Shown here in pieces: positions 13,170-57,948 of a stretch of DNA of 64,000 nt (position 1 is the stretch's first letter; every line of letters starts with the position of its first letter). Source of the DNA: Amphritea sp. (lineage in GTDB: Bacteria; Pseudomonadota; Gammaproteobacteria; Pseudomonadales; Balneatricaceae). The stretch is from the NCBI RefSeq assembly GCF_016744155.1, contig NZ_JADGEW010000002.1, forward strand, positions 124,001-188,000, in the 5' to 3' direction. Both the position numbers and the translations under genes were made by a program. A model generated the notes under the pieces. The model was given only the letters and a program-made list of their open reading frames with translations. It did no database searches and was not told the origin of the DNA.

Positions 13170-13183
13170 AGTACTTTAGTGCT
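13170..13183. promoter_or_regulatory. candidate alcohol-regulon operator upstream of the FIST/kinase operon
   Basis: AGTACTTTAGTGCT differs at three positions from the perfect palindrome AGTACTAAAGTACT found at 18670. A -10-like hexamer TAAAAT begins 24 nt after the last base of the box (13207), the same spacing as at the other sites. The gene start is about 150 bp downstream. Assignment to the LuxR regulator encoded at 17.9 kb is inference. Confidence 0.5.
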
Positions 13184-13331
13184 GTAGTCGTTTTTGTTTT
13201 ATCTAATAAAATCAATAGCCTGTGATTTTTCAGTGTTTTAATTACTCACAAGCAGGTACTCAAGTATACTATTTTCAATCGTCTATCCCTTTTAGACTCA
13301 AAAGTCCTCTTATACTTGCGGGGTCATAGCT

Positions 13332-14495
13332 TTGACCATTGAATCATCACAGAATATATCTCAACCCGAGTTACGGACTGCATTTTCCTCCGATCGGAAT
13401 GAGCTGCGGGCCGTTGAGCAGTTGTACCAACAACTTAACGGGTCAGATCTTAACTTTGTCCTGTTTTTTTGTTCTGCGGAATATGATCTTGAAACCCTGG
13501 CTGATGCGATGCAACAGCAGTTCAAGGATGTATTGGTGGCGGGTTGTACCACCGCCGGTGAGATTACCGTAGAAGGTTATGCTCAGGGCTGTATTTCCGC
13601 GGTGGGTTTTTCCCGCGAAGCATTTGCGGTTAGTGGTGTGTTGATTGAAAGCCTGGACCATTTCAATTTCTATGATGCTCAGGGCATAGTGCAGGATCTG
13701 TCTGAACGCTGTATGGAGCAGCAGATAGCGCCTATTAAAGATCATAGCTTCGCTCTGACGTTGTTTGATGGCCTGTCGACCCAAGAAGAAAAAGTATTGA
13801 TTACGCTGGACTCTGCGCTAGGTAGTATTCCTCATTTCGGTGGATCAGCAGGGGATGATATCTGTCTTGCTAACACGCATGTCTACTTTAACGGTGCTTT
13901 TCATACCGATGCAGCCGTCATTATTCTTGTGAATACCAGTTGTGAATTCAGGGTGTTTAGTGGACATCACATGGAAAGCAGAGATAGTAAACTGGTCGTG
14001 ACAGAAGCGGATAGCGATCAACGTCGTGTTCTGGAACTCAATGCAGAGCCTGCAGCGCTGGAATATGCGCGGGTGGTGGGTCTGCCTTTGGAAGAACTAA
14101 ACCATCACGTCTTTGCGCTCAATCCGATTGCTGTGCGTATTGGTGAAGAATACTTTATTCGATCGATACAGAGCGTAAATGACGACCTGAGTCTGACTTT
14201 TTATTGCGCAGTAGAGAACGGTATTGTACTTACGTTGATGCAACCAGGCGAAATGGCCCCTCTGCTTGATCAGCAACTGACGCGGGAGGAAAACGCTCTG
14301 GGAGAACATCTGTTAACCCTTGGGTGTGATTGTTTCCTTCGACGGCTTGAAGCTGAGCTTAGAGGAGAAAGTGAACAGATCTCTGATCTTATGAGACGTC
14401 ACCGGGTGGTCGGTTTTAATACCTATGGTGAACAGGTTGATGGGATGCATATTAATCAGACATTTACCGCTGTAGCGATCGGGAGAAAAGTATGA
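13332..14495 (+). CDS. FIST-domain sensory protein
   Basis: Cytoplasmic protein of about 387 residues covering FIST_N and FIST_C, a small-ligand-binding sensory module often paired with signalling proteins. Recognisable parts are VLVAGCTTAGEIT in the N domain and PIAVRIGEEYFIRSIQS in the C domain. No ATG occurs in frame for the first 60 codons, so the start is most likely the TTG at 13332 with a GGGG element about 8 nt upstream. The stop overlaps the next gene as ATGA, tying it to the hybrid kinase. A FIST gene next to an ErcS'-type kinase is also found in the Pseudomonas ethanol-oxidation region, which supports an input role for it here. Confidence 0.85.
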   Translation: MTIESSQNISQPELRTAFSSDRNELRAVEQLYQQLNGSDLNFVLFFCSAEYDLETLADAMQQQFKDVLVAGCTTAGEITVEGYAQGCISAVGFSREAFAVSGVLIESLDHFNFYDAQGIVQDLSERCMEQQIAPIKDHSFALTLFDGLSTQEEKVLITLDSALGSIPHFGGSAGDDICLANTHVYFNGAFHTDAAVIILVNTSCEFRVFSGHHMESRDSKLVVTEADSDQRRVLELNAEPAALEYARVVGLPLEELNHHVFALNPIAVRIGEEYFIRSIQSVNDDLSLTFYCAVENGIVLTLMQPGEMAPLLDQQLTREENALGEHLLTLGCDCFLRRLEAELRGESEQISDLMRRHRVVGFNTYGEQVDGMHINQTFTAVAIGRKV

Positions 14496-17089
14496 ATGGT
14501 GAGGTGAAACCTCAATCCATCGATCTACCTGATCGCGTCGAAGAACTGGAGCGGGAAAATCGCAAACTCCAGAAAATAAACAAAGTGCTGATTGAGCGAG
14601 TCGAGGTTAGCGCCACCACCCGTACTGATCCATACGCTGCTTTCGAACACTCTGTTGTATTGGCTGAGCAAGTTCGGGAAAGAACGGCAGCATTGAATGT
14701 CGCTCTGGGTGATCTGAAAACCAGCAATACAGCGCTGAGTCAGGCAAAGCAGCAGGCCGAAGTTGCTCATCAGCGACTGACAGATGGTATTGAAAGTATT
14801 TCTGATGCTTTTGTGTTGTTTGACAGTGAGCGCCGGATTGTTCTGTATAACAGTAAGTTTGAGTCGGTATGGGCCGGTATTGGTGTGTCGATAAAGCAGG
14901 GCCTGGGAATTCAGGAAATTCGACGCCTGGCCGATCAACATCAGTTGATAGAAGAAGAGTTCTATGGTGACGAGGCGGACAACTCAGTATTTTACCGCCT
15001 TAAGGATGGACGATGGTTTCAGGTAAGCGAGAGAGGAACTCTCGATGGCGGTCTGGTTATTCTCTATACCGATATTACCGAACTAAAGCAGAATGAAACG
15101 GCCCGCCGAGAACGGGCGCTGGCTGATAAATCCCGGGTACTACAAAATACAGTCGACAACCTGTCTCAGGGGGTTGTGCTGATTAACGCAGAAGGTCGCC
15201 TGGAGGTATGGAATCAGCGTTTTCTTGAACTTTCAGGCTTTACTGAGACGGTACTGAATAAGCAGCCACTATTCAGTGACCTGATATCTCGTTGTGAGTT
15301 AATTCTACTGACGCCGTTTAGTAATCATCATAGTGGCAATGGCACTATCGAGTTGGAACAGAGCTTGCGTAACGGGCAGGTTATTGAGGTTCGCACCCAT
15401 CCTATTCCTGAAGGGGGGTTCGTTAACACCTATGCCGATATCACCGAACGCCATCAATACGCCGAGACGCTGCGTGAGAGTGAACAGTGGATACGTTTGA
15501 TTACCGATCACGTACCGGCGTTGATCGCCTATGTAGGGGATGATCTGCGCTATCAATTTACCAATAAAGTCTATGAAGACTGGTATGGCTGGTCCCGCGA
15601 AGCGCTGACGGGTAAAACGATTACTATGGTTCATGGCGGTGAGCAGTTTGTAAAACTCAAACCTTATATTGATAAGGCGCTTTCCGGTGAGAGTGTTACC
15701 TTTGAAATTGAGGAGAAAGATCCCAAGGGTGAGCCGCGGTATATGCTAAAAGCCTATGTGCCTAACCTTGATTCTGAGGGAAAAGCGGTAGGGCTTTTTG
15801 TTCTGATTCGGGATATTACCGACAGACGTAAAACGGCTCAGGCACTGCAAGAGTCTTACCAGACGATGGAGCAGCGTGTTGTTGAGCGAACCTCTGAACT
15901 TACCAAGCTGAATGATCAGCTATGGCAGGAAATCACGGAACGAAAGCAGGTTGAAGGGCGTTTACTTGAGGCGAGCAAGCATGCCGAACAAGCTAACCTG
16001 TCGAAGACTAAGTTTCTTGCGGCGGTCAGTCATGATCTGCTGCAGCCATTGAACGCAGCTCGGCTCTTTACCAGCGCGTTGCAGGAAAAGTCAGCCGTTC
16101 AGAGTGAACGTCATCTGATCGACTCAGTTGGTGCTTCGTTGGATGATGTGGAATCACTGCTCAGTACTCTGGTCGATATATCTAAGCTGGATGCCGGTGT
16201 AATCGAGCCGGATGTGACTGTTTTCCCGGTCAGTAGTTTGCTTAATAATATCGCTAATGAGTATAAACAGGTTGCCGGTAGTGAGAGGCTTAAGTTGCGT
16301 TATGTATCCAGTAGCGCAGTAATCTCTTCTGACTCTCAGTTATTGGCGCGTATTCTGAGGAATTTCCTTACCAACGCTATTCGTTATACCGATAGGGGCT
16401 CAGTGTTACTGGGTTGCCGGCGAAAGCGACACAGCCTGGTGATTGAGGTGTGGGATACCGGGCGAGGCATTCCAGAAGAGAAACTGGGAGATGTTTTTCT
16501 TGAGTTCAAACGATTGCAGGCGAGCCGGGACGAGGGTGACAAGGGGTTGGGTCTGGGACTGGCTATCGTTGATAAAATTTCCCGCATGCTGGGGCACTGT
16601 ATCAGTGTTAGTTCAATACCAGGAAAAGGCTCAATGTTCTCAGTTGAGGTGCCTTTGGCGCCTGCAGATCAATACACTGTAGAGGCAAAAACTGAGCATC
16701 AGCCGGTAGCTGATAACCTGCTTGAAGGTGCTTCAATCTGGCTAATCGATAACGATCCTGCTATCTGCCGGGGAATGCAGACACTCCTCGAAGGATGGGG
16801 TTGTCATGTTCAGACGGTTCATGACGAGGCTCAATTGCTTGGCTTGTTGAGCGAGCAGGAAGTGCCTGGTTTATTGATTGCTGATTATCATTTGGATGAC
16901 GATAAGAATGGTCTGGATGCCGCGATTAACTTTAATCAGCAATTAAGCGACCCGGTGCCGGTGCTTATGATTACAGCCAATTATACGAATGAGCTTAAGC
17001 AGGTTATTCGAGAGCAGGGGTACCTGTTAATAAACAAGCCGGTTCGGCCTATGAAGCTTAAGATGACACTGAATCACCTTCTAAAGTAA
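14492..17089 (+). CDS. PAS-containing hybrid sensor histidine kinase (ErcS'/NahK-like)
   Basis: Soluble hybrid kinase of 865 residues: N-terminal coiled coil (about 10-90), three PAS domains (about 95-210, 225-320 and 330-450), a second coiled coil, a dimerisation domain with phosphorylated His514 in the motif AVSHDLLQPLNAAR, an ATPase domain (NAIRYTDRG, DTGRGIPEE, GLGLGLAIV) and a C-terminal receiver with Asp798 in LLIADYHLDD. There is no membrane segment, so it reads an internal signal, perhaps through the FIST protein translated just before it. The layout matches ErcS', one of the kinases controlling ethanol oxidation in Pseudomonas. The likely output is the LuxR-type regulator encoded convergently 140 bp away. 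Confidence 0.88.
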   Translation: MNGEVKPQSIDLPDRVEELERENRKLQKINKVLIERVEVSATTRTDPYAAFEHSVVLAEQVRERTAALNVALGDLKTSNTALSQAKQQAEVAHQRLTDGIESISDAFVLFDSERRIVLYNSKFESVWAGIGVSIKQGLGIQEIRRLADQHQLIEEEFYGDEADNSVFYRLKDGRWFQVSERGTLDGGLVILYTDITELKQNETARRERALADKSRVLQNTVDNLSQGVVLINAEGRLEVWNQRFLELSGFTETVLNKQPLFSDLISRCELILLTPFSNHHSGNGTIELEQSLRNGQVIEVRTHPIPEGGFVNTYADITERHQYAETLRESEQWIRLITDHVPALIAYVGDDLRYQFTNKVYEDWYGWSREALTGKTITMVHGGEQFVKLKPYIDKALSGESVTFEIEEKDPKGEPRYMLKAYVPNLDSEGKAVGLFVLIRDITDRRKTAQALQESYQTMEQRVVERTSELTKLNDQLWQEITERKQVEGRLLEASKHAEQANLSKTKFLAAVSHDLLQPLNAARLFTSALQEKSAVQSERHLIDSVGASLDDVESLLSTLVDISKLDAGVIEPDVTVFPVSSLLNNIANEYKQVAGSERLKLRYVSSSAVISSDSQLLARILRNFLTNAIRYTDRGSVLLGCRRKRHSLVIEVWDTGRGIPEEKLGDVFLEFKRLQASRDEGDKGLGLGLAIVDKISRMLGHCISVSSIPGKGSMFSVEVPLAPADQYTVEAKTEHQPVADNLLEGASIWLIDNDPAICRGMQTLLEGWGCHVQTVHDEAQLLGLLSEQEVPGLLIADYHLDDDKNGLDAAINFNQQLSDPVPVLMITANYTNELKQVIREQGYLLINKPVRPMKLKMTLNHLLK

Positions 17090-17228: not shown

Positions 17229-17897
17229 TTAGCGCTTGAGATAGTGATTGAAATCTACATTACCAGCGGTCAGTACTGCCTGAATGCGGTTGTGAACCCC
17301 AAGTTTGCGCAGAATGGCGCTGACATGAGCCTTAACCGTGGTTTCGGCGATGTTGAGGTTGTACGCTATCTGTTTATTTGACTCGCCCTCAGACATTCTC
17401 TCAAGTACCAATAGCTGTCTGCGGGTGAGGGAGGAAAGCATTTCGGGTGGTATCTTGCTTTCATCGTGACGGCGATGCATGCCATTAGAAGGTTTTTCAG
17501 AGCGAATGATATCTGAAGGCAGATAGACATTACCGTCCAGAATCTGTTGTAGTGCCTCAGTCATCTGCTCCCGAGGAGATGATTTAGTGATAAAGCCCAC
17601 CGCTCCATAGGTAATTGCCTGGAGTACGACCTGTTTGTCCTGTTCGGCGGACACGATTACCACTGGTATAGTGGGCGAATCGTTACGTAGGCTCATCAGG
17701 CCGTTAAGTCCATTCATTCCGGGCATATTAAGGTCTAGCAGAATCAGGTCAAGATCTTCTTCCTGCTGGGCGATAACCAAAGCGCTATCGAGATCTTCAG
17801 TCTCAAGTGTTTCGCAACCGGGAAAACCATTTTCGATTACGCTGCTAATCGCCTCTCGAAACAGTGGATGGTCGTCTGCAATTAAAATTTTATACAC
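17229..17897 (-). CDS. LuxR/NarL-family response regulator (AgmR/ErbR-like)
   Basis: Response regulator of 222 residues. The receiver has the acidic pair in [10 protein letters not shown], phospho-acceptor Asp55 in [13 protein letters not shown] and the conserved Lys in GFITKSSP. A LuxR-type helix-turn-helix follows at about residues 150-215 ([40 protein letters not shown]). Size and context match AgmR/ErbR (PedR1), the regulator of PQQ-dependent ethanol oxidation in pseudomonads. It faces the hybrid kinase gene and lies next to the CxxxCW gene. It is the best candidate to bind the palindromic box repeated upstream of the alcohol genes, though no copy is seen before its own start. Confidence 0.85.
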
Positions 17898-17992: not shown

Positions 17993-18598
17993 TTACGGCA
18001 TGTTTACCGGAAACGGTTCAGGCTTCAGAGTCGTTTCCGGTAGTTCAGCTTCCTGCCAGCCATCGATACCCTCTTTATACCAATATAGTTCTGTATAGCC
18101 CCAACTGTGAGCTCGTCTGACAGCATTCCAGGACATCCAGCAATCAGCTGTGCAATATAAAACTATGTCACTATCTGTTTTTCCATCAGTATTTTCGTGC
18201 AGATAAAAACGAAAATAATCCAGCCATACTTGCTCCGGTTCTCCCTGACCCACATTCGGCAGCCATCGGCTGCCAGGAATTCCTACTTGTGGCTGCTGTT
18301 GCAAAAAGATGCCCTGTAGCCACTCCAACGGTTGCACATTTATCAATACCGGGGGGTGATCTGACCGGATTTTATCATGTAGTGCTGTGGTATTAATTCG
18401 CTCGCCGCCTTCTGCCTTTTTTGGTGTTGGACTGCGATACCGGGTAATGCGATAGCCATCAAAATTAAACAGGAACGGGTCGTCCTCATAATCACTCAGC
18501 CAATGCGGGCTTTCCTTCTCAGGTGAGCCTGTTACAGAAAAGCTCATTGCCAGGGCTATCAGTGTAATGAATAACCTGATTTTGCCTCTCCATTTCAC
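17993..18598 (-). CDS. PQQ-catabolism-associated CxxxCW rhodanese-like periplasmic protein
   Basis: Secreted protein of 201 residues with an N-terminal signal peptide (about 24 residues ending near VTGS) and a rhodanese-like fold. The diagnostic motif is VLYCTADCWMSWNAVRRA, where two cysteines are separated by TAD and the second is followed by Trp. This matches the family catalogued as PQQ-dependent catabolism-associated CXXCW-motif protein, which is found only near quinoprotein dehydrogenases. The spacing seen here is C-x3-C-W. The biochemical role is unknown; sulfur transfer or thiol exchange in the periplasm is a guess from the fold. It is transcribed away from the perfect palindrome at 18664. 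Confidence 0.82.
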   Translation of the reverse strand: MKWRGKIRLFITLIALAMSFSVTGSPEKESPHWLSDYEDDPFLFNFDGYRITRYRSPTPKKAEGGERINTTALHDKIRSDHPPVLINVQPLEWLQGIFLQQQPQVGIPGSRWLPNVGQGEPEQVWLDYFRFYLHENTDGKTDSDIVLYCTADCWMSWNAVRRAHSWGYTELYWYKEGIDGWQEAELPETTLKPEPFPVNMP

Positions 18599-18663
18599 TT
18601 AAACCACCTCTGACACTATTACACCTATAGAAGCGTCGAATGGATATTCAACTATACGACTGA

Positions 18664-18689
18664 AAAACCAGTACTAAAGTACTGGTTTT
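18664..18689. promoter_or_regulatory. perfect 12-bp inverted repeat: candidate divergent operator
   Basis: Two perfect 12-bp arms (AAAACCAGTACT and its complement) are separated by only two A, too tight for an RNA hairpin and typical of a dimer-binding operator. On the plus strand TATAAT begins at 18707, 24 nt past the AGTACT core. On the minus strand TATCCA begins 24 nt past the mirror core (18646 down to 18641). One operator thus appears to serve both the GGDEF gene and the CxxxCW gene. This is the best copy of the motif in the window. Confidence 0.65.
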
Positions 18690-18844
18690 ATGGGAGGCTG
18701 ATATTTTATAATAGGCGCTTCATATATGATTTATTTATGTATTGATCTATATCAATTTATTGTTAGATACATAACGTATACTGATTTAACCTATACCAAT
18801 TGAAATTTCTAACCTTTCAAGTCGCTAAAACCTGGATCTATTAA

Positions 18845-20977
18845 ATGTTGCAAAAGGTTGATTCGACTCGACTGCCTACCCAGCTTCTTTGGGGTATTTC
18901 TCTCATTGTCATCTTGCTTCTGATTGCTCAGAGTGCGTATTTTTATACCAATACTAAAGCTAACCATCAGCATCAACTCAACTCGCTTCGCGAAACTCTC
19001 ATTCAACAGCAACGTAGCCGATTGAAAACTGAGTTGCGAGATGCGGGTTATATGATTGATCAGATGCTTTCTGGAGCATCTGATCTGCTTGAACAGCAAT
19101 CTCGGATGCACACTCGTTATGCCCTGACGGTAATGAATACCCTTTATCAGCGTTACCATCTTCAACTTTCTGATAAAGAGATGAAACAGATGTTGGTTGA
19201 GGCTTTGAGGGGTATTCGCTTCTTTGATGGGCGAGGCTACTTCTTTATCGACAAGATGGATGGCACCGCTGTGCTTTTACCAACAGCGCCCCATCTCGAA
19301 GGAAAATCATTACTCGAAAATCAAGACGATACCGGCCACTTTATTATGCGCGGGCTGATTGATGCGGTGTCAAATGAGCAACGTGCTGGTTTTTCCTTTT
19401 ATCGTTGGTATGCCCCCGGTGATGATCGACAGATGAAACAGAAGATCGCTTATGCAGAGGTTTTCGAGCCCTATAACTGGATTGTCGGCACCGGAGACTA
19501 TATTCATCAGATTGAGCAAGATCTGGTTCCCAGAATTTTCGATCATATAAGAAATATCCACTTTGGAGAGACTGGCTCTATTGCTATAGCCACTCAAGAG
19601 GGGGATTTACTGGTCAGTGGAATAGCTCCAGATAGAGAGGGCGAAAACTATCTGGCAGACTTAAATCTTGTCAACAGACGTGCAGCAGAACTGGTAACTC
19701 AGACTGCTCGTAATGGTGGTGGGTTTGTGTTTTACGACTGGTATAGGCAAGGAGATGATGAAGCTAGCAAGAAGTTGTCTTTGGTGAGCCCTGCGAATGA
19801 CAGAGGTTGGATTTTGATAGCTGGGATATTTCAAGATGAGTTAAATCAACTGTTAGCAAAGCAGCAGAAGAATCTTGATAGTGAACTCCGGCAGAGTAGC
19901 GTTAACATGGTTCTGGTACTGACGATCATTGGGTTGCTCGCGATTGTTATTACTCAGTCTTATAGCCGTTGGTTAAAAAGACGATTTCATCGTTATCAGA
20001 ATAATATCGATAAACAGCAGGCGATGCTGCACCAGACTGCCGAGTCGTTGAAGCTCAGTGGCCTTATTGTGGAGTCAGCCTATGAAGGAATCGCTGTCTG
20101 TGATCCGGAAAATCGCATTCTTAAAGTTAATAGTGCCTTTACTCGTATTACTGGATATGAAGAGGCAGAGGTGGTCGGTAATACGCCAGGAACTCTGGCT
20201 TCAGGACGGCACGATAAAGAATTTTATATGCAGATGTGGGAGAGGCTCAATACGCAGGGCTTTTGGCGTGGAGAGATCTGGAATAAGCGCAAGAATGGTG
20301 AAATATATCCTCAAATATTATCGATAACTGCATATAAGGATCCTATCGGTAAAGTTCAAAACTATATTGCTATCTTTAATGATATTACCCAACGGGTAGA
20401 GTTCGAACAGCAACTGCGGTCTATGGCTGAAACTGACCCGCTGACGGGTCTGGGTAATCGACGTACTCTGATGAGTTGCCTGGACCGTGATTTAGCGGCT
20501 GCAGATCGATATGGGGCTCCCGACACGGCGCTGCTATTTGTTGATCTTGATCACTTTAAGGCTATCAATGATACCTATGGTCACGATATTGGTGATGCTG
20601 TCTTGATTGAAGTGGCAAACTGCCTCAAACGTTGTTTACGTGATTCTGATCTGGCATGTCGGATCGGTGGTGATGAGTTTGTTGCTGTTGTAAGGCTGCA
20701 GACAGAAGAAGACATCGAACAATTAAGGGCTCTAAGTAGTCGTTTATTGGACGAGTTGATGAAGCCTGTTCAATTGTCAGGTATTGAGATCGAGCTTAGT
20801 TGTAGTATCGGTGTTTCGATACGTCAGGAGGCCGGTGAGGATAGTACACGTCTTGTGAAACGTGCTGATCAGGCGCTCTACCAAGCTAAGCGCCAAGGGC
20901 GTGGCAGGGTGGTTTTCTATTCTAATAAGGGTGAAACTAACGTTTTCCCATCCCCTGTTGAGGTTGAAAACCTCTGA
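18845..20977 (+). CDS. CACHE-PAS-GGDEF diguanylate cyclase
   Basis: Membrane sensor of 710 residues. A membrane helix at about 16-35 leads into a periplasmic region with two CACHE-type modules (GIRFFDGRGYFFI, GFSFYRWYAPGD, YNWIVGTGDYIHQIEQDL; then a repeat ending GWILIAGIFQDEL). A second helix lies near residues 355-375, then a PAS domain (about 395-515) and a GGDEF domain with an intact active site (RIGGDEFVAVV) and typical DLDHFKAINDTYGHDIGD. It should make cyclic di-GMP in response to a periplasmic ligand. A close paralogue lies at 54527, after the aldehyde dehydrogenase. Its 3' end overlaps the convergent ABC permease gene by 41 bp. Confidence 0.88.
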   Translation: MLQKVDSTRLPTQLLWGISLIVILLLIAQSAYFYTNTKANHQHQLNSLRETLIQQQRSRLKTELRDAGYMIDQMLSGASDLLEQQSRMHTRYALTVMNTLYQRYHLQLSDKEMKQMLVEALRGIRFFDGRGYFFIDKMDGTAVLLPTAPHLEGKSLLENQDDTGHFIMRGLIDAVSNEQRAGFSFYRWYAPGDDRQMKQKIAYAEVFEPYNWIVGTGDYIHQIEQDLVPRIFDHIRNIHFGETGSIAIATQEGDLLVSGIAPDREGENYLADLNLVNRRAAELVTQTARNGGGFVFYDWYRQGDDEASKKLSLVSPANDRGWILIAGIFQDELNQLLAKQQKNLDSELRQSSVNMVLVLTIIGLLAIVITQSYSRWLKRRFHRYQNNIDKQQAMLHQTAESLKLSGLIVESAYEGIAVCDPENRILKVNSAFTRITGYEEAEVVGNTPGTLASGRHDKEFYMQMWERLNTQGFWRGEIWNKRKNGEIYPQILSITAYKDPIGKVQNYIAIFNDITQRVEFEQQLRSMAETDPLTGLGNRRTLMSCLDRDLAAADRYGAPDTALLFVDLDHFKAINDTYGHDIGDAVLIEVANCLKRCLRDSDLACRIGGDEFVAVVRLQTEEDIEQLRALSSRLLDELMKPVQLSGIEIELSCSIGVSIRQEAGEDSTRLVKRADQALYQAKRQGRGRVVFYSNKGETNVFPSPVEVENL

Positions 20978-21728
20978 CGGCCAGTACAGAAGCCACCACT
21001 GTCACTAGTGCGACAATGATTAACGCCTCACTGTTTCCCTGTTGATACAGTGCAAATCGAATCAGTTCTACCCCGTGACTAAAAGGGTTCCAGGCGCAGA
21101 TCCAGTACAGCCACTCGCTTGCTTCGCGCATTTTCCATAACGGATAAAGCGCAGAAGAAAGGAAGAACATCGGGAAGATCACGAAGTTCATGACACCAGC
21201 GAAATTCTCTAGCTGTTTTATCCTGGCTGAGATAAATAGCCCTATTGCACTCAGCATCATTGCGACTAGTAGAAAAGCGGGTAACGCAGTGAGGTAACCC
21301 CATAGCGGTGCTTCAACCCCCCAGAACCATGCTATAAGCAGAAAACCATAGACTTGCAGTAGTGAAATTAGGGATGTGGACATGAGCTTTGCCATCAGTA
21401 GAAACGGGCGGGGTAAAGGACTGACCAGTAAAACTCGCATACTGCCCATCTCCCGATCATAGACCATCGATAGAGAGCTTTGCATGCCATTGAATAGGAT
21501 GATCATGGCGCACAAGCCGGGTACGATATACACCTCATAGGTGATATAGGTTTGATAGGGTTCGATAATAGCGATGCCCAGCGCGGCCCGAAAGCCTGAG
21601 GCAAACACCACCAGCCATAACAGGGGTCTTACCAGGGCACTGAAAAAGCGCGAGCGCTGCTGCACGAAGCGTAAAAGCTCTCGCTGCAGTAAACCGTTAA
21701 AGCAGATCAGTCCATCTCTAAGAGTCAC
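20937..21728 (-). CDS. ABC-2 type permease of the PQQ-alcohol-dehydrogenase-associated ABC system
   Basis: ABC-2 type membrane subunit of 263 residues with about six helices and the family motif FFLSSALYPLWKM before the last helices. It belongs to the permease type that accompanies PQQ alcohol dehydrogenases (PedC-like). The start is set at the GTG at 21728, which overlaps the ATPase stop as GTGA and has GGAGAG upstream; a TTG 27 nt earlier is an alternative. ABC-2 permeases usually export, yet the operon also contains a binding protein, which is odd for an exporter. Substrate is unknown; export of a toxic intermediate or heme/cofactor handling are guesses. Confidence 0.82.
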   Translation of the reverse strand: MTLRDGLICFNGLLQRELLRFVQQRSRFFSALVRPLLWLVVFASGFRAALGIAIIEPYQTYITYEVYIVPGLCAMIILFNGMQSSLSMVYDREMGSMRVLLVSPLPRPFLLMAKLMSTSLISLLQVYGFLLIAWFWGVEAPLWGYLTALPAFLLVAMMLSAIGLFISARIKQLENFAGVMNFVIFPMFFLSSALYPLWKMREASEWLYWICAWNPFSHGVELIRFALYQQGNSEALIIVALVTVVASVLAVRGFQPQQGMGKR

Positions 21729-22465
21729 TGTTGCTCTCCGGTATCTTTTTGACAAGTAAGTTTCTGAAACAGATCGTTTAGGTTGGCGGTATTATGCTGT
21801 CTACATAATCGGCTGACCATGTCGCTGGCTAGAATTCTACCCTGATGCAGGATAGTGACCGAATCATCCTCTGTAACTTCTTCAATCAGGTGGGTTGCCC
21901 ATAATACGGTGAGTTGATCTTGCTGACACAGTTGTCGAATATGAGTATTGAGTGATATTCGGGTAGAGGGGTCTAGGCCAACGCTGGGCTCGTCTAATAG
22001 TAAAATAGTGGGTTGGTGCAGCAGCGCCCGAGCAATTTCTACCCGGCGTCGATGACCGCCGTTGAGACTGCGTACTTTGTCATGCAAGCGCTCACTGAGT
22101 CCAAAGCGTTCCAGCTCGGCGGTAATTCTTGGGGTGGCCAGACGTTTGGATATGCCGTGAAGCGCTGCGTGATAATAGAGATTCTGCGCAACCGTCAGGT
22201 CCAGATCCAGAGTGCTCTGTTGAAATACAACGCCGAGCTTGCGCATCACCTCTGCCGGATGTTGGGCGATACTGCGTCCGGCAATGGTAATGTTTCCAGA
22301 CTGTAGGGCATAGAGTCGTGTCAGCAATGCATAGAGGGTACTTTTACCGGCGCCGTTGGGCCCCAATAAGGCATTAAAGTTACCCTCCCGCAACGTTAGA
22401 TTGATCTCTTTTAGCGCCGTGCGGGGGCCGTAGCTGAAACTGAGGTTTTGGATCTCAATGCTCAT
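21725..22465 (-). CDS. ABC ATPase of the PQQ-alcohol-dehydrogenase-associated ABC system
   Basis: ABC-2 type ATPase of 246 residues. Walker A is at residues 35-43 (GPNGAGKST), the Q-loop is VVFQQSTLD, the signature is LNGGHRRRVEIARAL (LNGGH in place of the usual LSGGQ), Walker B is ILLLDEPSVGLD and the switch histidine is in WATHLIEEV. The diverged signature is typical of this PQQ-associated subgroup. The gene lies 14 bp after the beta-propeller gene and overlaps the permease gene by 4 nt, so the products clearly form one transporter. Confidence 0.87.
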   Translation of the reverse strand: MSIEIQNLSFSYGPRTALKEINLTLREGNFNALLGPNGAGKSTLYALLTRLYALQSGNITIAGRSIAQHPAEVMRKLGVVFQQSTLDLDLTVAQNLYYHAALHGISKRLATPRITAELERFGLSERLHDKVRSLNGGHRRRVEIARALLHQPTILLLDEPSVGLDPSTRISLNTHIRQLCQQDQLTVLWATHLIEEVTEDDSVTILHQGRILASDMVSRLCRQHNTANLNDLFQKLTCQKDTGEQQ

Positions 22466-22479
22466 GGTTATTTACCGGA

Positions 22480-23463
22480 TCAAGGTTTGATCCTTACCCC
22501 CCATGGATAGCGGCCAACTTTTATCGATTTGATGACCTTCATATCTTCAATGTCTATTACTGATATATCGCCGCTGATACCGTTGGTGGTGAGTAAGCGG
22601 GACTGATCGGCATTGAAATCCATATGCCATACCCGTCTGCCAACGAGCAAGTAATCCAGTACTTCGTAGGTTTTAGCGTCCACCAGAGCGATATGATTCG
22701 CCGGGCCAAGCGCGACAAAAGCGTATTTACCATCATCGGTCAGTTTTATGCCAACGGGTTGAATTTTATCCGGATGAATTCCTCTGATTTTAAAGCTGAG
22801 CTTGTGCTGAATTTTACGACTGGCGACATCGATAATAGAGACTGTTCCGCCGATCTCTGAAGAGGCCCAGACAATACTGCCCTCTTTGTTAAATTCAACA
22901 TGACGAGGGCGTTGATCTACCAGTGTATTGTCAACCAGCTGATTGGTCTCGGTATCTATCCAGTGCACCATATTTGTTGTTTCGCTGGTGCTTAGCGCCC
23001 ACTTACCATCCGGGCTGATCGCCATGCCTTCCGGTTCTACACCGACATCTATCTGGGCTAATACTTCCTGAGTTTGAACATCTACAACGGTTACCAATGC
23101 ATCATCTTCATTGGCTATGTAGAGTCGGCGGTCATCTGGATGCAGAGCGAACTGTTCTGGGTCTTCGCCAGAGGGTAACTGAGCGATAATACTGTGATCG
23201 CTGAGATCCATTACCTGTACGGTGTCGGAATCACTGGCGCAAATATAAAGCTTAGTACGGTCATGACTAAAAATTATTCCCCGAGGCCGCTCACCCACAT
23301 CGATAGTCTCCGTGACCTCCAGCGTATCAAGATCGATGATGGACAAGGTATCGTCTTTTTCATTGGAAATATATGCGGTCTCAGCGGTGGCAGCGGAGCT
23401 AAGTAGCGCACTACTTATCACGGAGATCGCCAGCAAGTTGAGAGTGAATCTTAAGGGCTTCAT
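22480..23463 (-). CDS. PQQ-catabolism-associated YVTN beta-propeller protein
   Basis: Periplasmic protein of 327 residues: signal peptide (about 27 residues, ending SSAATA) followed by a seven-bladed YVTN-type propeller. Blades are marked by repeats such as AYISNEKDDTLSIIDLDTLEV, LYIANEDDALVTVVDVQTQEV and GDISVIDIEDMKVIKSIKVG. The start at 23463 is preferred over an earlier in-frame Met because it gives a proper signal peptide, has AGGA upstream, and avoids overlap with the preceding gene, whose stop is 17 bp away. Proteins of this kind are found with quinoprotein dehydrogenases; none has a proven function. Binding of a partner or cofactor precursor is possible. Confidence 0.85.
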   Translation of the reverse strand: MKPLRFTLNLLAISVISSALLSSAATAETAYISNEKDDTLSIIDLDTLEVTETIDVGERPRGIIFSHDRTKLYICASDSDTVQVMDLSDHSIIAQLPSGEDPEQFALHPDDRRLYIANEDDALVTVVDVQTQEVLAQIDVGVEPEGMAISPDGKWALSTSETTNMVHWIDTETNQLVDNTLVDQRPRHVEFNKEGSIVWASSEIGGTVSIIDVASRKIQHKLSFKIRGIHPDKIQPVGIKLTDDGKYAFVALGPANHIALVDAKTYEVLDYLLVGRRVWHMDFNADQSRLLTTNGISGDISVIDIEDMKVIKSIKVGRYPWGVRIKP

Positions 23464-23480
23464 AAAAACAGATCCTATTG

Positions 23481-24668
23481 TTATTTTACTGCTGTATTGA
23501 ATGACACTGTGCAACTGGATTCAGGCCGGTCAAAGCCTAAAGTGTCCAGATCTGTAACCGGGTGTAGAAAGCCTTCTAAAGGAGGCTGAGATACCAGGGA
23601 TCTAGGCTGTACCAGCGGAATCGGTTGACGTAACTGACCACTCCAGCTGCGAAAATTCAGCTTGCGTCCCTTAAAGGCAGCTAACTGAAACTGGTCAGAA
23701 TTGATAAAGCTAAAGAGTGTTTCAGTGTCTGATGAACGGGTTTGAGTCACCGCTTCACCTATGGTTCTTACTGCTGCCCAGGCCGCGTAATCTTTGCTAT
23801 TCATCCAGCGATGATAATGTTTCTCGAAACGGCTCTGGAGCTGTGCTGCGCCCCATTGCTCAATAACCCGGTGCCAGGCAACCGGTGATAAGCCTTGGGT
23901 GCCTGCAACGGGCCTTGGGTACCAAGTGTTGTACATGACGTACTCACCGAAATCTCCCCGTTCATCGGCTACTACAACCAGGTCATATTCATCAGTCTGA
24001 GTAAACAGAGGGAGTTCGCGCTGGGCAGTACGACGCAGATCGGTATCAAAACTCCAGGTTTTCTCAGCGACAATCTTCACGCCAAAACGTTTAGCGCTGC
24101 GCTTCAGTGATTCAGAATAGGCAATATCCTCTGGCTGAGAGCCTTTGATCAGTAACCAGCGTTGCAGACGCCGGGCGGTACTCCATTGTCCCAGAGCATC
24201 AGTTAACATTGCCCGGCTTGGTAGGGTGTGCAGCGTATTGGTTGGACAGGCTTCTGTACGTAGCTCATTGGCGTAACTCCCCGCATTAAAAATGATGGCG
24301 CCATATTCTGTGGCGATTTTTGTGACGGTGAGTAACTCTTTTTTGGGGAGATCGGTTATCAATAGTCTGATACCACTGTCCAACCACTGAGTGACGGTTT
24401 TGCTAACCTGTTCAGGTGTTTCTGCCAGTTCTGATTCTAGCGAGTAGTGCTGCTTCAGAAATCGTCCGGTGGTGTTGTTGTCTTTAAGTCCCAGCTGGGC
24501 TCCTCTGAGCCCTCTGTCTTCAGGTTCTGGAAGCAAATTTGACAATACTGGCCCTTGATCAGGATGGTAAGCCAGGAAACCGATTCTGGTTTCCTGTTCT
24601 TCCGCAGTCACTACTATGCTGAGTAGTTGAAGGCTTAGGATAAGGGTGAAAAATTTTAATAGATGCAT
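23481..24668 (-). CDS. ABC substrate-binding protein, PQQ-alcohol-dehydrogenase system
   Basis: Periplasmic binding protein of 395 residues with a signal peptide ending near VVTAEE and a two-lobed Leu/Ile/Val-binding-type fold (GFLAYHPDQGPVLS at the N terminus, DLVVVADERGDFGEYV in the second lobe, the AAWAAVRTIGEAV segment near the C terminus). It belongs to the PedG-like group associated with PQQ alcohol dehydrogenases. It is the first gene of a four-gene minus-strand operon (binding protein, propeller, ATPase, permease) whose promoter faces the cupredoxin-like gene across the box at 24763. A type I importer-style receptor paired with an ABC-2 permease is unusual and suggests a sensing or delivery role rather than import. 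Confidence 0.82.
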   Translation of the reverse strand: MHLLKFFTLILSLQLLSIVVTAEEQETRIGFLAYHPDQGPVLSNLLPEPEDRGLRGAQLGLKDNNTTGRFLKQHYSLESELAETPEQVSKTVTQWLDSGIRLLITDLPKKELLTVTKIATEYGAIIFNAGSYANELRTEACPTNTLHTLPSRAMLTDALGQWSTARRLQRWLLIKGSQPEDIAYSESLKRSAKRFGVKIVAEKTWSFDTDLRRTAQRELPLFTQTDEYDLVVVADERGDFGEYVMYNTWYPRPVAGTQGLSPVAWHRVIEQWGAAQLQSRFEKHYHRWMNSKDYAAWAAVRTIGEAVTQTRSSDTETLFSFINSDQFQLAAFKGRKLNFRSWSGQLRQPIPLVQPRSLVSQPPLEGFLHPVTDLDTLGFDRPESSCTVSFNTAVK

Positions 24669-24762: not shown

Positions 24763-24776
24763 AGTCCTGAAGTACT
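24763..24776. promoter_or_regulatory. candidate divergent operator between binding-protein and cupredoxin-like genes
   Basis: AGTCCTGAAGTACT matches the perfect box at 12 of 14 positions. On the plus strand TAGGAT begins exactly 24 nt after the box (24800). On the minus strand TTTAAT begins 24 nt before it (24739 down to 24734). It can therefore serve the plus-strand gene at 24841 and the minus-strand ABC operon at once, as at 18664. Confidence 0.55.
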
Positions 24777-24840
24777 ATTTTTTAAAAATGTCAGCGGCTT
24801 AGGATTAGCTGTAAGCAATGATAATCCAAAGGTGAGAGCT

Positions 24841-25281
24841 ATGATTCGAGTATTTACTAGTAGTGCTGCAGCAACAATTGTTACCTTGGCGATGACCTTA
24901 AGTGGCACGGTAATGGCAAAAGGAGACCTGACTCGTAAGCCTCAGGCCTTACCCGATCTGGTGATGGGTAGCGAAGAGAGTGATTACAGTTTTTCACAGA
25001 AAATCTATGAGTTGGAAACCGGTCAGGCCTATAAACTGGAAATCATATCCAGTGGACAGAAAGAATACGCCCTGCAAGCGCCAGATTTTTTTACCTCGAT
25101 CTACCTGCGAAAAGTTGAAGCCGGAGGATTGGAAATCAAAGCGGTTGGTCTGACGGAGTTAGAGTTTGAAGATGAAGGCAGTGCCGAAATCTACTTTGTT
25201 CCGGTAAAGCCTGGTACCTATGAATTCTATGCGAATGGTTTGCAGAACAAAGGCATGGTGGGTAAGTTTGTCGTTAAATAA
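24841..25281 (+). CDS. secreted cupredoxin-like protein lacking copper ligands
   Basis: Secreted protein of 146 residues with a signal peptide ending near TVMAKG. The C-terminal strand pattern (VKPGTYEFYANGLQNKGMVG) has the outline of a cupredoxin copper loop, but the positions where Cys and His ligands are expected carry Ala and Gln or Asn; only a Met in KGMVG remains. It is thus either a cupredoxin that lost copper or a scaffold with the same fold. The ATG at 24841 is chosen over a GTG at 24832 because AGGTGA lies 5 nt before it. Divergent from the ABC operon and 55 bp before a Sel1-repeat gene, it likely belongs to the alcohol regulon. Confidence 0.6.
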   Translation: MIRVFTSSAAATIVTLAMTLSGTVMAKGDLTRKPQALPDLVMGSEESDYSFSQKIYELETGQAYKLEIISSGQKEYALQAPDFFTSIYLRKVEAGGLEIKAVGLTELEFEDEGSAEIYFVPVKPGTYEFYANGLQNKGMVGKFVVK

Positions 25282-37784: not shown

Positions 37785-37809
37785 CCATCAGAGAAAAGGA
37801 TAATTCGTG

Positions 37810-38100: not shown

Positions 38101-38270
38101 GTTTTGATACCTGTTTAGTAAGTATTAGTACTAAGTATGTATAAAACTCATTCCCCCGGTTAATTGTTGTAAAGCTGGTATTTTCCCAAAATATGGGTAG
38201 GTCTGGGGTCTGTATCCAGCCCTCTCGATAGTCAGAAAATAAGAACAATCCTTAATCAAGGAGCATTGCA

Positions 38271-52378: not shown

Positions 52379-52679
52379 TATTTCCTCTTACTGAGCCGTT
52401 AGATGCTCATATCCTGACTCACTGACACTGGTCGTTGTCTTAAGCCTGTTATGGCTTTAAGTCGATGATGTGAATATAGCTTTGTTCTGCTGCAATTGCT
52501 TATGAAAAGGTGCTCAGTTTGGGTGGGGGCTCCGTGCTTCAGCTCAAGAATTACTACTAAATAACTAATTTTTCAGTGCCAAGGGAGCATGGCTGGGTAT
52601 CGGGTCTACTGATTACTATTAACAGGTACTCAAAACAGCACCGCGAAGTGCGCTGTATAACAAAAAAGAGGCTTAGAAA
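52379..52679 (+). promoter_or_regulatory. 301-bp promoter region of the aldehyde dehydrogenase gene
   Basis: Non-coding. It contains the diverged box at 52553 and, just after it, TTTCAGTGCCAAGG, which resembles TTTCAGCACCAAAG after the box at 34458. No clear ribosome-binding site except a purine-rich GAGGCTTAG before the start. Confidence 0.4.
52553..52566. promoter_or_regulatory. weak alcohol-regulon operator upstream of the aldehyde dehydrogenase
   Basis: ACTACTAAATAACT matches the perfect box AGTACTAAAGTACT at 11 of 14 positions. The T-rich sequence after it and the shared downstream string support homology to the site at 34458. No -10 hexamer is found at the 24-nt spacing. Confidence 0.35.
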
Positions 52680-54200
52680 ATGATTTACGCACAGCCAGGA
52701 ACCGAAGGTTCAGTTGTTTCTTTTAAAGACCGTTACGCTAACTATATTGGTGGTGAGTGGGTTGCGCCTGTTAAAGGTCAGTACTTCCAGAATGTTACCC
52801 CAGTTACCGGTGAAGTGTTTTGTGAAATTCCACGTTCAACAGAAGAAGATATTAATCTGGCGCTAGATGCAGCGCATGCAGCTAAGGATGCCTGGGGTAC
52901 TACCTCAGTAACCGAACGCTCTAATTTACTGCTTAAAATTGCAGATCGCATCGAACAAAATCTTGAACTGCTGGCTGTTGCCGAAACTTGGGACAACGGT
53001 AAAGCAGTACGTGAAACGATGGCCGCTGACGTGCCACTTTGTGTTGACCACTTCCGTTACTATGCCGGTTGTATCCGTGCCCAGGAAGGTTCAATCGGTG
53101 ATATCGATCAGAATACTGTTTCTTACCAGTTCCATGAGCCACTAGGTGTAGTGGGTCAGATTATTCCTTGGAACTTCCCATTGCTGATGGCTGCCTGGAA
53201 ACTGGCACCAGCACTAGTAACAGGCAACTGTGTTGTTCTGAAGCCTGCCGAGCAGACGCCGGTATCTATCCTGAAACTGATGGAAGTGATTGGTGACCTG
53301 TTACCACCGGGTGTACTGAACGTAGTTAACGGTTTTGGTAAAGAAGCCGGTGAAGCGCTGGCGACCAGTACTCGTATCGCGAAGATCGCATTTACCGGTT
53401 CTACGCCTGTAGGTTCGCACATTCTTAAGTGTGCTGCTGAAAATATCATTCCGTCTACGGTAGAGCTGGGCGGTAAGTCACCAAACATCTTCTTTGCTGA
53501 CGTAATGAATCAGGAAGATGAGTTTGTCAGTAAAGCGGTAGAGGGTGCAGTGCTGGCATTCTTTAACCAGGGTGAGGTGTGTACCTGTCCTTCCCGTTTG
53601 CTGATTCAAGAAAGTATGTATGATGAGTTTATCGCTAAGGTTGTCGAGCGTGCTAAGCAGATCAAGCGTGGTAATCCACTGGATACCGACACTATGGTGG
53701 GTGCTCAGGCTTCTGAACAGCAATTCGATAAGATCATGTCTTATATGGATATCGGTAGAGAAGAAGGCGCTGAATTCCTGATCGGTGGTGATGCTCATGT
53801 AAACGATGGTGAGTTTGGTTCTGGCTACTACGTCCAGCCTACGCTGATGAAAGGTCATAACAAAATGCGCGTTTTCCAGGAAGAGATTTTCGGTCCTGTT
53901 GTTGCAGTAACTACCTTTAAAGATGAAGCTGAAGCGCTTGAAATCGCGAACGATACTGAGTTTGGTTTGGGTGCCGGTGTCTGGACCCGTGATATGAACC
54001 TTTCTTATCGTATGGGTCGTGGAATCCAGTCTGGTCGTGTTTGGACTAACTGTTATCACCTATATCCTGCACACGCAGCATTCGGTGGTTACAAGAAGTC
54101 TGGTGTAGGCCGAGAGACTCATAAAATGATGTTGGATCACTACCAGCAGACCAAGAACTTGTTGGTTAGCTACGATATCAATCCATTAGGTTTTTTCTAA
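52680..54200 (+). CDS. NAD-dependent aldehyde dehydrogenase (ExaC/AcoD-like)
   Basis: Aldehyde dehydrogenase of 506 residues, a cytoplasmic enzyme that oxidises acetaldehyde or similar aldehydes to acids with NAD. Visible motifs are the NAD-binding [10 protein letters not shown] and [17 protein letters not shown], the general base Glu in [12 protein letters not shown], the catalytic Cys301 region [13 protein letters not shown] (Cys301 and Cys303), and [10 protein letters not shown]. The [11 protein letters not shown] form is typical of the ExaC/AcoD group paired with PQQ ethanol dehydrogenases. It completes the alcohol-to-acid route started by the enzyme at 38271, although it lies 12.6 kb away. 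Confidence 0.9.
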
Positions 54201-54526: not shown

Positions 54527-56653
54527 ATGGAATTTACAAAAAAAATTTATAAATCACAGATGCGAACGCTCTGGTCGGTAATGGCGCTGATCGTTCTCTC
54601 TCTGGCCGCATTGTTGGCGTATTTCTTTACGATCAGTCATCAACATAGTGAGGCCCGTCTTAATACCTTCCAACAATCAATTGAGATGCAAATAAGCCGT
54701 AGGTTGAAGGGTGAAGTATTGGCTGCCAGTGGTTATGCCGAAGCTAAGTATCAGCGCGCAGAGCAGGTACTCATGGCGCGCGCTCAGGATGAGGTGTTGC
54801 AAGCGTTAGAGGTGATGGAAGGCATTTATCAGCAGAACAAAAACATAATTTCAGAGGCTCAACTAAAACAGATTATGCTCGAATCTTTGCGCGGCGTTCG
54901 TTTTTTTAATGGGCGCGGATACTATTTTGTCGGTGACTCTCAGGGGCAAAGTCTGCTTCTACCGACTCAGCCGGAACTGGAGGGAACATCGTTAATAGAT
55001 CTTAAAGATGACAAAGGTAATTATTTCGTTCGCCGCTTTACTCAGGTGATCGCTTCGGATGAAGGCAGAGGTTATGTTCGCTATCGCTGGTATCCCCCCG
55101 GCGATCAGCAAAATATGCAGGATAAAATCACCTATATTGCTCGCTTTGAACCTTTCAACTGGATGATTGGCGCGGGGGATTATGTTTTTAGAATTCAGAA
55201 CGACCTGCAACATGACATTATTGAATATCTTCAAAATATTCAGTTTGGCGAAGATGGTTATATCTCAGTGCTGGATAGCAAAGGGGGTATCATCGCTGGC
55301 AAAGGGGTGAGTCGATTAGTCGGGAAATACTCCTCTTTGCTGGAATCAGCAGAAGACCGAAAGCGCCTTGCAGCGGTTGCTTATCACGTAGGCACGGAAG
55401 GCTTCTTTCGCAGTGACTGGTATCAGGCCGACGGTACTCCGGTTAGTGATCAGCTGATATATGCAAAACCATTACCTATGTGGAACTGGGTTTTATTGGC
55501 AGGGGCTTATACGGACTCAAGTTTGGCGCTGTTGGAAACGCAGCGACAAGCCATTAGTCAGCAAGAGCGAAGTGATAGCTTACAGCTGATGGCTATGCTG
55601 GGCCTGATAATGGCTATCGCTTTACTCACAATGAGGTACTTCGCTCGCGGGTTTCAGCGAGTTTTTAGCGGCTATCAAACAGACCTCGATCAGCAGAACA
55701 AAGTGCTGATAGAAAATGCTCACTCCTTGGAGATCAGCGCCCGCATCGTCCAGGCGGCCCATGAAGGCATAATGGTAACGGATACGAATAACCGAATTAT
55801 CAGTATTAACGAATCATTCACTCGAATTACGGGTTATGAACTGGACGAAGTCATTGGGAAAGACCCTAAGTTATTAAAATCTTTCCGCCAGGACAGTGAT
55901 TTCTATCGAGCACTATGGGATGTTCTGAAGCGTAAGGGTGTATGGCATGGAGAGGTTTGGAATCGCCGTAAGAATGGCTCTCTCTATCCTCAGGCTCTGT
56001 CGATTACATGTCTTCGTAATGATGCGGGGAACGTGGAGAACTATATTGGTACCTTTACCGATATAAGCCAGCGAAAAGCCTTCGAAGAGCAGTTGGAACA
56101 TATGGCGCAAAGTGACTCTTTGACCGACCTTCCCAATCGTCGAACACTCACCGCCCGCTTGCAACACGAACTGGCCATTATTGGGCGAAACCCTGGGCGG
56201 CAGCTGGGTATCATCTTTATGGATCTTGATAATTTCAAACCGATTAATGATACCTATGGCCATGGGGTGGGCGACCAGGTATTGATTACCATTGCCCGTC
56301 GGTTGAATGAAACCGTCCGTAGTATTGATATGGTTAGCCGGGTAGGGGGAGATGAATTCGTTATTATGCTGGGTAACCAGCCTGGTGATATGCAGCAGAC
56401 AGCGATCAAGCTGGCTGAACGAATTATTCAGGTTGTATCTGAGCCTATTATGATTGCCGGGGAGAGCTTTTCATTAACAGCGAGTCTTGGGATCTCTTTG
56501 GCGCCAGGTGATAGTAGCGATGAGAGCCAATTGCTGGAATATGCTGATCTGGCGCTGTACCAGGCAAAGCGGCAAGGACGTAATAACTATAAACTGTTTG
56601 CCCTCTGGATGGCTGAAAAGCAGCAGGAACAAAGAGATCAGGGGAATAAATGA
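54527..56653 (+). CDS. CACHE-PAS-GGDEF diguanylate cyclase, paralogue of the 18.8-kb gene
   Basis: Membrane sensor of 708 residues with the same layout as the protein at 18845: helix at about 15-35, two periplasmic CACHE-type modules (GVRFFNGRGYYFV, YVRYRWYPPGD, NWMIGAGDYVFRIQNDL; second ends NWVLLAGAYTDSS), helix near 350, PAS (about 395-515) and GGDEF (RVGGDEFVIMLG, intact). The CACHE motifs align one-to-one with the paralogue, which points to related ligands. Its place after the aldehyde dehydrogenase suggests sensing of a substrate or product of alcohol oxidation. That is inference. Confidence 0.88.
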   Translation: MEFTKKIYKSQMRTLWSVMALIVLSLAALLAYFFTISHQHSEARLNTFQQSIEMQISRRLKGEVLAASGYAEAKYQRAEQVLMARAQDEVLQALEVMEGIYQQNKNIISEAQLKQIMLESLRGVRFFNGRGYYFVGDSQGQSLLLPTQPELEGTSLIDLKDDKGNYFVRRFTQVIASDEGRGYVRYRWYPPGDQQNMQDKITYIARFEPFNWMIGAGDYVFRIQNDLQHDIIEYLQNIQFGEDGYISVLDSKGGIIAGKGVSRLVGKYSSLLESAEDRKRLAAVAYHVGTEGFFRSDWYQADGTPVSDQLIYAKPLPMWNWVLLAGAYTDSSLALLETQRQAISQQERSDSLQLMAMLGLIMAIALLTMRYFARGFQRVFSGYQTDLDQQNKVLIENAHSLEISARIVQAAHEGIMVTDTNNRIISINESFTRITGYELDEVIGKDPKLLKSFRQDSDFYRALWDVLKRKGVWHGEVWNRRKNGSLYPQALSITCLRNDAGNVENYIGTFTDISQRKAFEEQLEHMAQSDSLTDLPNRRTLTARLQHELAIIGRNPGRQLGIIFMDLDNFKPINDTYGHGVGDQVLITIARRLNETVRSIDMVSRVGGDEFVIMLGNQPGDMQQTAIKLAERIIQVVSEPIMIAGESFSLTASLGISLAPGDSSDESQLLEYADLALYQAKRQGRNNYKLFALWMAEKQQEQRDQGNK

Positions 56654-57884: not shown

Positions 57885-57911
57885 GAAAACCGCCTTATGG
57901 CGGTTTTTTTA
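57885..57911 (+). terminator. intrinsic terminator after the DUF3012 gene
   Basis: AAAACCGCC and GGCGGTTTT form a nine-base-pair stem with loop TTAT, followed by T-residues. It insulates the pqq promoter region from upstream transcription. Confidence 0.93.
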
Positions 57912-57934
57912 TAGACTAAAACAGGAGGGAGTTT

Positions 57935-57948
57935 AGTTCCAAAGTACC
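57935..57948. promoter_or_regulatory. candidate alcohol-regulon operator upstream of pqqA
   Basis: AGTTCCAAAGTACC matches the perfect box at 11 of 14 positions (12 if the T/C pyrimidine position is allowed). TATTAT begins 25 nt after it (57973), about 50 bp before the pqqA start, which would suit a promoter with a short leader. Confidence 0.5.

Follow-up and report, generated by a model that had tools for sequence, protein, structure and literature searches.

A conserved palindromic box in the alcohol-oxidation region of Amphritea sp. as the probable operator of its AgmR/ErbR/PedR1-type response regulator

The window (the whole stretch of Amphritea sp. DNA that was analysed, 64,000 nucleotides in length) carries what its genes indicate to be a ped/exa-type alcohol-oxidation region. 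The following genes were identified, with the source of each name in brackets:

11952, strand not given: porin (Pfam and translations)
13332–17089, plus strand: FIST-domain protein and PAS hybrid histidine kinase (Pfam)
17229–17897, minus strand: AgmR/ErbR/PedR1-type response regulator with receiver and GerE/LuxR helix-turn-helix, the likely binder of the box described below (Pfam Response_reg, GerE)
17993–18598, minus strand: rhodanese-like CxxxCW protein, upstream of agmR on the same strand (Pfam and translation)
18845–20977, plus strand: Cache-PAS-GGDEF protein (Pfam)
20937–24668, minus strand: ABC-2 permease, ABC ATPase, YVTN beta-propeller and substrate-binding protein (SBP), PedA1A2BC-like (Pfam)
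24832–25281, plus strand: cupredoxin-like gene, so named in the initial annotation and with no Pfam hit (translation)
34618–38100, plus strand: cytochrome c, SBP3, SoxYZ, metallo-hydrolase and a small PqqD-like gene (Pfam and translations)
38271–40034, plus strand: PQQ alcohol dehydrogenase (Pfam)
52680–54200, plus strand: aldehyde dehydrogenase, ALDH (translation and orthologues)
54527–56653, strand not given: second Cache-GGDEF-like protein (translation)
58029–58100, plus strand: pqqA (23 codons), first gene of pqqABCDE, which runs to 61333 (translation and orthologues)

The neighbourhood matches the ped cluster gene table in the accessible part of one Pseudomonas study, including the order ABC-2 permease, ATPase, beta-propeller and SBP (PMC12997753). 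The Pseudomonas AgmR/ErbR/PedR1 regulon, as described in the available portions of two papers, has a regulator of the same family, the same neighbours (porin, FIST/NosP, hybrid kinase, rhodanese, PedABC-like genes, cytochrome, SoxYZ, metallo-hydrolase and dehydrogenase) and a link to pqq (PMC12997753, PMC13390443). The regulator at 17229, in which the receiver and LuxR-type helix-turn-helix were confirmed, shares 72–79% identity with several regulators from records titled Pseudomonas that lie in a ped-type setting, a comparison made with these records rather than with PP_2665 or PA1978 directly. The closest named records with a regulator of this type include an Oceanospirillales MAG (91%) and Neptuniibacter, Neptunomonas and Pontibacterium (83–84%), and DevR is among its solved relatives. 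The products of 18845–20977 and 54527–56653 are of similar Cache-PAS-GGDEF make-up (the second by translation), the first standing behind an exact copy of the box; the presence of two such proteins in an alcohol region suggests that alcohol oxidation may be connected with cyclic di-GMP.

It had been proposed in the initial annotation that a recurring palindrome, AGTAC-Y-AA-R-GTACT, ties these genes into one regulon. The box is real at the positions given, where it was seen exactly or with one to three mismatches. Scanning the window with AGTACYAARGTACT gave exact matches at 18670 and 34458 (the latter had been called perfect), one mismatch at 13170 (minus strand), two at 24763 and 57935 and three at 52553, and the perfect 12-bp arms described at 18664 are present. 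The sites are as follows:

13170–13183, no strand assigned: box with one mismatch, upstream of the FIST/kinase genes
18670–18683, no strand assigned: exact box (AGTACTAAAGTACT) in the divergent gap between rhodanese-agmR on the left and the Cache-PAS-GGDEF gene on the right
24763–24776, no strand assigned: box with two mismatches in the divergent gap between the SBP-ABC genes on the left and the cupredoxin-like gene on the right
34458–34471, plus strand: exact box (AGTACCAAGGTACT) upstream of the cytochrome c operon, with counterparts in relatives
38127–38140, plus strand: half-conserved box (ASTACYAAGTRAGT-like) upstream of the PQQ alcohol dehydrogenase gene
52553–52566, plus strand: weak box with three mismatches, upstream of the aldehyde dehydrogenase gene
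57935–57948, plus strand: variant box AGTTCCAAAGTACC upstream of pqqA, the same variant being found in several relatives

Some other matches were rejected. The weak copy reported at 26708 could not be upheld, as it falls in an alignment gap of G015, the single relative aligned there, and a match at 22650 lies within the beta-propeller ORF. At 58073–58086 a strong-looking decoy (two mismatches) is built by the pqqA codons E-V-T-M-Y-F, and it recurs in relatives because these codons are conserved.

Short palindromes of this kind might be chance matches which were given meaning by the choice of coordinates. The loose scan of the window fits such a reading, being not significant by itself (19 matches at up to three mismatches compared with 13.3 ± 3.7 in shuffled sequence, with 8 of 100 shuffles reaching 19), as do the loss of the 26708 copy and the behaviour of weak matches to ASTACYAARGTAST, which at up to two mismatches are not enriched genome-wide (101/109 versus 220/222 for the reversed control, i.e. 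the box is the rarer). Under a stricter threshold of one mismatch, nine sites of AGTACYWWRGTACT were found in the genome searched (4.15 Mb in 48 contigs) and four of the reversed-pattern control. The three sites within the window are all intergenic; outside it, five of six lie in ORFs and the sixth straddles a stop codon. At the same threshold ASTACYAARGTAST gave 12 sites, nine of them outside the window. Seven of these nine are in ORFs; of the remaining two, one is located ~400 bp upstream of a GNAT-like ORF and the other comes after the end of an AMP-ligase ORF, with the next ORF convergent. Genome-wide, the box at up to one mismatch is therefore not common in unrelated intergenic regions (one of six sites outside the window, itself half in an ORF, or two of nine, depending on the pattern), and the proposed regulon was not refuted on this point. 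Its significance is drawn from this rarity and from conservation rather than from the loose window scan and, as there is no genome-wide enrichment at two mismatches, the argument for the weak sites is one of conservation. The recurrence of the box at orthologous promoters in many genera and its joint occurrence with the regulator, both set out below, make chance a hardly credible explanation of the whole; regulator co-occurrence and the counts from Pseudomonas-type loci speak against it for the strong sites, while single weak sites could still fall.

Conservation was followed at orthologous promoters. The rhodanese gene was matched in 24 genomes, and in the 23 scored (G072, with no regulator match, stands outside this set) the best upstream site had zero to two mismatches in 20 and three in the other three. 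At the cytochrome c, ALDH, pqq and SBP/cupredoxin-like promoters counterparts occur at similar distances in many relatives, some of them stronger than the window copy (several at ALDH, the promoter of the 52553 box), and some relatives have weak matches only. The FIST box is found as exact copies in L066 and L089 and is variable in other relatives. For the site at 38127, 32 of 33 genomes were matched and 30 loci obtained; all 30 orthologous promoters have counterparts with one to four mismatches to ASTACYAARGTAST and, when ASTACYAAGTNAGT is used to select the counterparts, 6 of 14 columns show no variation, a figure which is biased upwards, as for box columns in general, by picking the best pattern match (the downstream columns are unselected). 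The weak sites at 52553, 57935 and 38127 thus have conserved counterparts in orthologous promoters.

The box also extends to more distant loci of Pseudomonas type. This set consists of 29 loci, of which 26 are titled Pseudomonas, two are Pseudomonadaceae MAGs and one is titled Paucimonas, and it was scanned with ASTACYWWRGTAST at up to one mismatch within 300 bp upstream of each gene. A box was found before the rhodanese gene in 22/22 loci, SBP in 17/19, the cupredoxin-like gene in 5/6 and cytochrome c in 12/17, compared with 0 to 0.1% for shuffled sequence; the cytochrome and SBP counts are not independent because the divergent gap is common to both in some loci. The agmR gene itself is preceded by a box in 5 of 29. 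No box at this threshold was detected before FIST (0/21), porin (0/14), SBP3 (0/10), ALDH (0/4) or pqqB (0/1), and dehydrogenase counts were left out, two rows (L175 and L181) being slicing artefacts at locus ends (distances >11 kb). Save for these FIST, porin and SBP3 genes and the few ALDH and pqqB genes, the box was therefore found upstream of orthologous targets in other genera. The promoters on the contig titled Paucimonas sp. MAG (L188) closely resemble those of P. putida L185, and this contig may be mislabelled or contaminated.

The distribution of the box follows that of the regulator. Ninety-five genomes, including that of Amphritea sp. itself, were compared, and a regulator orthologue, defined by E<=1e-70 to the 17229 protein, was present in 46. 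An exact AGTACYWWRGTACT occurs in 25 of the 95, namely in 24 of the 46 genomes with an AgmR-type regulator versus 1 of the 49 without (Fisher 7e-9), in 24/43 versus 0/16 within the family (4e-5) and in 10/13 versus 0/4 within the genus (0.015), where the p values are only a guide as the genomes share descent. The reversed-pattern control was found in 7/46 and 8/49, respectively. Twenty-two of the 46 regulator-bearing genomes have no exact box, and in L090, the single regulator-less genome with one, the site lies between ORFs. The exact sites (n=33) are concentrated near the regulator gene, with 15 at most 1 kb upstream of it and 25 within 20 kb; in three of nine box loci opened (L067, L076 and L080) the site lies within an ORF and is probably there by chance. 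In three genomes where the rhodanese search was empty (G021, G035 and G053) the box stands directly upstream of agmR (L087, L081 and L083), an arrangement also seen in Pseudomonas L179 and L189. Around 55 AgmR-type regulators (1060 kb) 82 sites were counted at up to one mismatch, and around 25 regulators of <50% identity (468 kb, with a differing background because Azospirillum and similar GC-rich records are included) only two, both in the same locus. Four control palindromes gave 0–5 and 0–3 sites, respectively. In a Sphingopyxis sp. MAG (L231) two box-like sites at 5432 and 5630, 200 bp apart and with zero and one mismatch to ASTACYWWRGTAST, lie near a regulator only 44% identical to AgmR, and a TAGACCATTGTCTA site lies at 7813.

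On the basis of (i) co-occurrence across genomes, (ii) the box before the regulator gene or operon, and (iii) orthologous promoters as far as Pseudomonas, it is very probable that the AgmR/ErbR/PedR1 response regulator encoded at 17229, which had been suspected as the binder, has the box as its operator. A single regulon of alcohol-oxidation genes is likewise supported, AgmR/PedR1 being described in the accessible P. putida texts as the master activator of such genes (PMC12997753, PMC13390443). According to these texts it activates ped and pqq genes in Pseudomonas (PMC12997753), and in P. putida deletion of pedR1 strongly lowers pedE, pedF, pedI and pedS2R2 (PMC13390443).

Another NarL-type regulator, either the acetate regulator CrbR/ErdR or a PedR2/ExaE-like protein, could bind the box instead, with AgmR acting only upstream. 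The closest known element is the ACTU motif of CrbS/CrbR (MxtR/ErdR) in Pseudomonas fluorescens SBW25, where, in the text available, a regulator likewise of the LuxR/NarL family recognizes an imperfect palindrome with the core ACYAARGT (sites TACTACCAAAGTCTAAT and TAATACTAAGGTCGTCT); the motif lies just upstream of the -35, as the box does, and also activates carbon-oxidation genes (PMC5715377). CrbR activates acs through this inverted repeat at -52 to -36, and four point mutations abolished activity (PMC5715377). The window boxes have the same core abutting the -35, a likeness which favours the rival, as does the reported response of P. putida dehydrogenase genes to PedR2 (PMC13390443); because of the latter, the half-conserved 38127 site could belong to a PedR2-like protein. 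However, the flanks and targets differ. ACTU flanks are TAG/CTA-like and found at acetate genes (acs, actP), whereas the window boxes have AGT/ACT-like flanks and precede alcohol genes.

Both types of site occur in the Amphritea sp. genome. Only three AgmR matches at E<=1e-15 were detected in it, and the CrbR-like paralogue (47% identical to AgmR) adjoins acs, which has its own TAG/CTA-flanked site, TAGACCAATGTCTA. With TAGACYWWRGTCTA at up to one mismatch, three sites were found genome-wide versus 32 for the reversed control:

G000:C15:19010, C39:39175 and C43:4443 (L289, L290 and L288), strand not given: TAG/CTA-flanked sites from the genome scan

These precede acs, an isocitrate-lyase-like ORF and (by ~100 bp) a reductase-like ORF, the last two named from translation. 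The recognition-helix regions of AgmR and the CrbR-like paralogue (the latter compared as SEATIKAHVTAILRKL) differ. The ACTU palindrome was not enriched around the 25 regulators of <50% identity, with two sites at up to one mismatch, as in the AgmR loci. In P. aeruginosa, a survey of ErdR binding found acsA and, in the text consulted, neither the agmR nor the ercS promoter (PMC9927353), and in P. putida catabolic genes are reported to drop more in a pedR1 than in a pedR2 deletion (PMC13390443). Binding by such a relative in place of AgmR is consequently considered improbable.

The DosR/DevR box of mycobacteria, TTSGGGACTWWAGTCCCSAA, is likewise recognized by a NarL-family regulator. It has the same AC-YWWR-GT core layout and differs in being longer, with GGG/CCC flanks, and in serving hypoxia genes of a distant organism.

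The spacing between the box and the putative -10 was also determined, with the offset taken as the best mean match to TATAAT counted past the box. A -10-like hexamer beginning 24 nt past the box had been noted at three sites, and it is present in the window (TAAAAT at 13170, TATAAT at 18670 and TAGGAT at 24763) but does not hold as a general rule. In relatives the 24-nt register is clear to the right of 24763, second-best to the right of 18670 (n=5, best 17, then 24, for the GGDEF promoters) and not discernible for FIST (n=14, two dropped; nothing clear). An offset of 19 scored best for rhodanese (n=21, two dropped), cytochrome (21), ALDH (22) and dehydrogenase (30), 20 for SBP (10), 24 for the cupredoxin-like gene (11) and 25 for pqq (18, one dropped). 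Pseudomonas-type loci gave 19 for cytochrome (n=17), 20 for SBP (19) and 25 for the cupredoxin-like gene (6), with rhodanese (22) split between 13 and 18. As more promoter sets have a -10-like hexamer at 19–20 nt, 24 nt is one of two registers. With the hexamer taken as -12 to -7, the first register places the box at ~-44 to -31, where it overlaps the -35, and the second at ~-49/-50 to -36/-37, where the ACTU motif sits. These -10 assignments are likely, not sure, because scoring instead for A at position 2 together with T at 6 favours other offsets, with 14 above 19 for rhodanese and cytochrome and 22 best for dehydrogenase. A promoter scan of 18400–18900 gave no more than shuffles.

In relatives, the box of the rhodanese and cytochrome promoters, and less clearly that of the ALDH promoters, is followed by N2, a T-run, a CCAARG-like hexamer at 13–18 and a -10-like hexamer at 19. 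The window copy is:

34484–34495, plus strand: downstream element CCAAAGCAGAAT, with CCAAAG at 13–18 and a -10-like hexamer at 19–24 past the box

CCA at 13–15 was present in 10/21 rhodanese, 19/21 cytochrome, 14/22 ALDH and 17/17 Pseudomonas-type cytochrome promoters; the nine other sets lack it. The repeat CCAARGTA (CCAAAGCA in the window, 34484–34491) has the sequence of the box's right half, 22 bp further downstream, where it overlaps the -10-like hexamer. It is conserved in the cytochrome promoters of relatives and in some of their rhodanese and ALDH promoters, and may be either another contact of the regulator or an element of the core promoter.

A palindrome followed by a T-run, as in the rhodanese and cytochrome promoters, might act as an RNA hairpin, e.g., a two-way terminator or attenuator, and the copies at 18670 and 13170 do form more stable folds than shuffled sequence (z -5.0 and -3.0; plus strand). 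However, four of the six copies fold no better than shuffles (z -1.1 to +0.4; plus strand only) and so lack the stable hairpin of an intrinsic terminator, and a terminator scan of 18400–18900 left the box unflagged. The sites are also positioned in front of genes, twice within a divergent gap, and keep a set spacing to -10-like hexamers. A role as hairpins is thus very unlikely, and the operator remains the preferred reading.

From the sites, their rarity, their conservation and their tie to the regulator gene, we infer how AgmR may act and where transcription would start. A kinase would signal alcohol, leading to phosphorylation of AgmR, which would then bind as a dimer to ASTAC-YWWR-GTAST. 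Seated on the palindrome and abutting or overlapping the -35, the dimer would stand in for a poor -35 and recruit RNA polymerase. Predicted targets are rhodanese-agmR (giving positive feedback), SBP-ABC and the cupredoxin-like gene, the cytochrome c operon, alcohol dehydrogenase, aldehyde dehydrogenase and pqq; the GGDEF and FIST/kinase genes may be added with less support. A more speculative scheme, which we hold to be possible but doubtful, is that NarL-type regulators share the core ACYAARGT while the flanks sort the targets (AST/AST for alcohol and AgmR, TAG/CTA for acetate and CrbR, in the same genome), that one box drives two divergent promoters in two fixed registers (-10 at 18–20 nt to one side and at 24–25 nt to the other), and that CCAARGTA, 22 bp downstream and overlapping the -10 in cytochrome and many rhodanese promoters, is a second regulator contact.

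It had been stated that no described operator of this form was known for the regulator. For AgmR/ErbR/PedR1 this stands, in that none was found in the accessible literature (supplements and most subscription journals lie outside this scope), including the available text of PMC12997753, PMC13390443, PMC9023270, PMC8041468, PMC13086498, PMC9927353 and PMC4686015; a closely similar operator, the ACTU motif, is, however, described for the paralogue CrbR (PMC5715377). Where the accessible Pseudomonas regulon texts yielded no operator (PMC12997753, PMC13390443), there is here a concrete box, also placed before diguanylate-cyclase and FIST/kinase genes. ErbR/AgmR is likewise absent from the main text, as far as available, of the P. 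aeruginosa HT-SELEX and ChIP-seq papers. A DAP-seq survey of P. aeruginosa response regulators may hold an ErbR motif.

In Pseudomonas, which is widely used as an engineering host, AgmR/ErbR/PedR1 acts as the master switch for alcohol oxidation, and its direct action on catabolic genes was still being argued in 2026; the paper in question, in its accessible part, makes the case for direct PedR1 action and says that this had been reported once before, in P. putida HK5 (PMC13390443). The box would be useful here because direct AgmR control becomes testable base by base: it names the bases to mutate at each promoter and predicts positive feedback on agmR. It also gives a route to regulon prediction in Nitrincolaceae-like bacteria, Marinobacter and Pseudomonas and, set beside the CrbR motif, provides an example of how regulators that arose by duplication may be held to separate targets.
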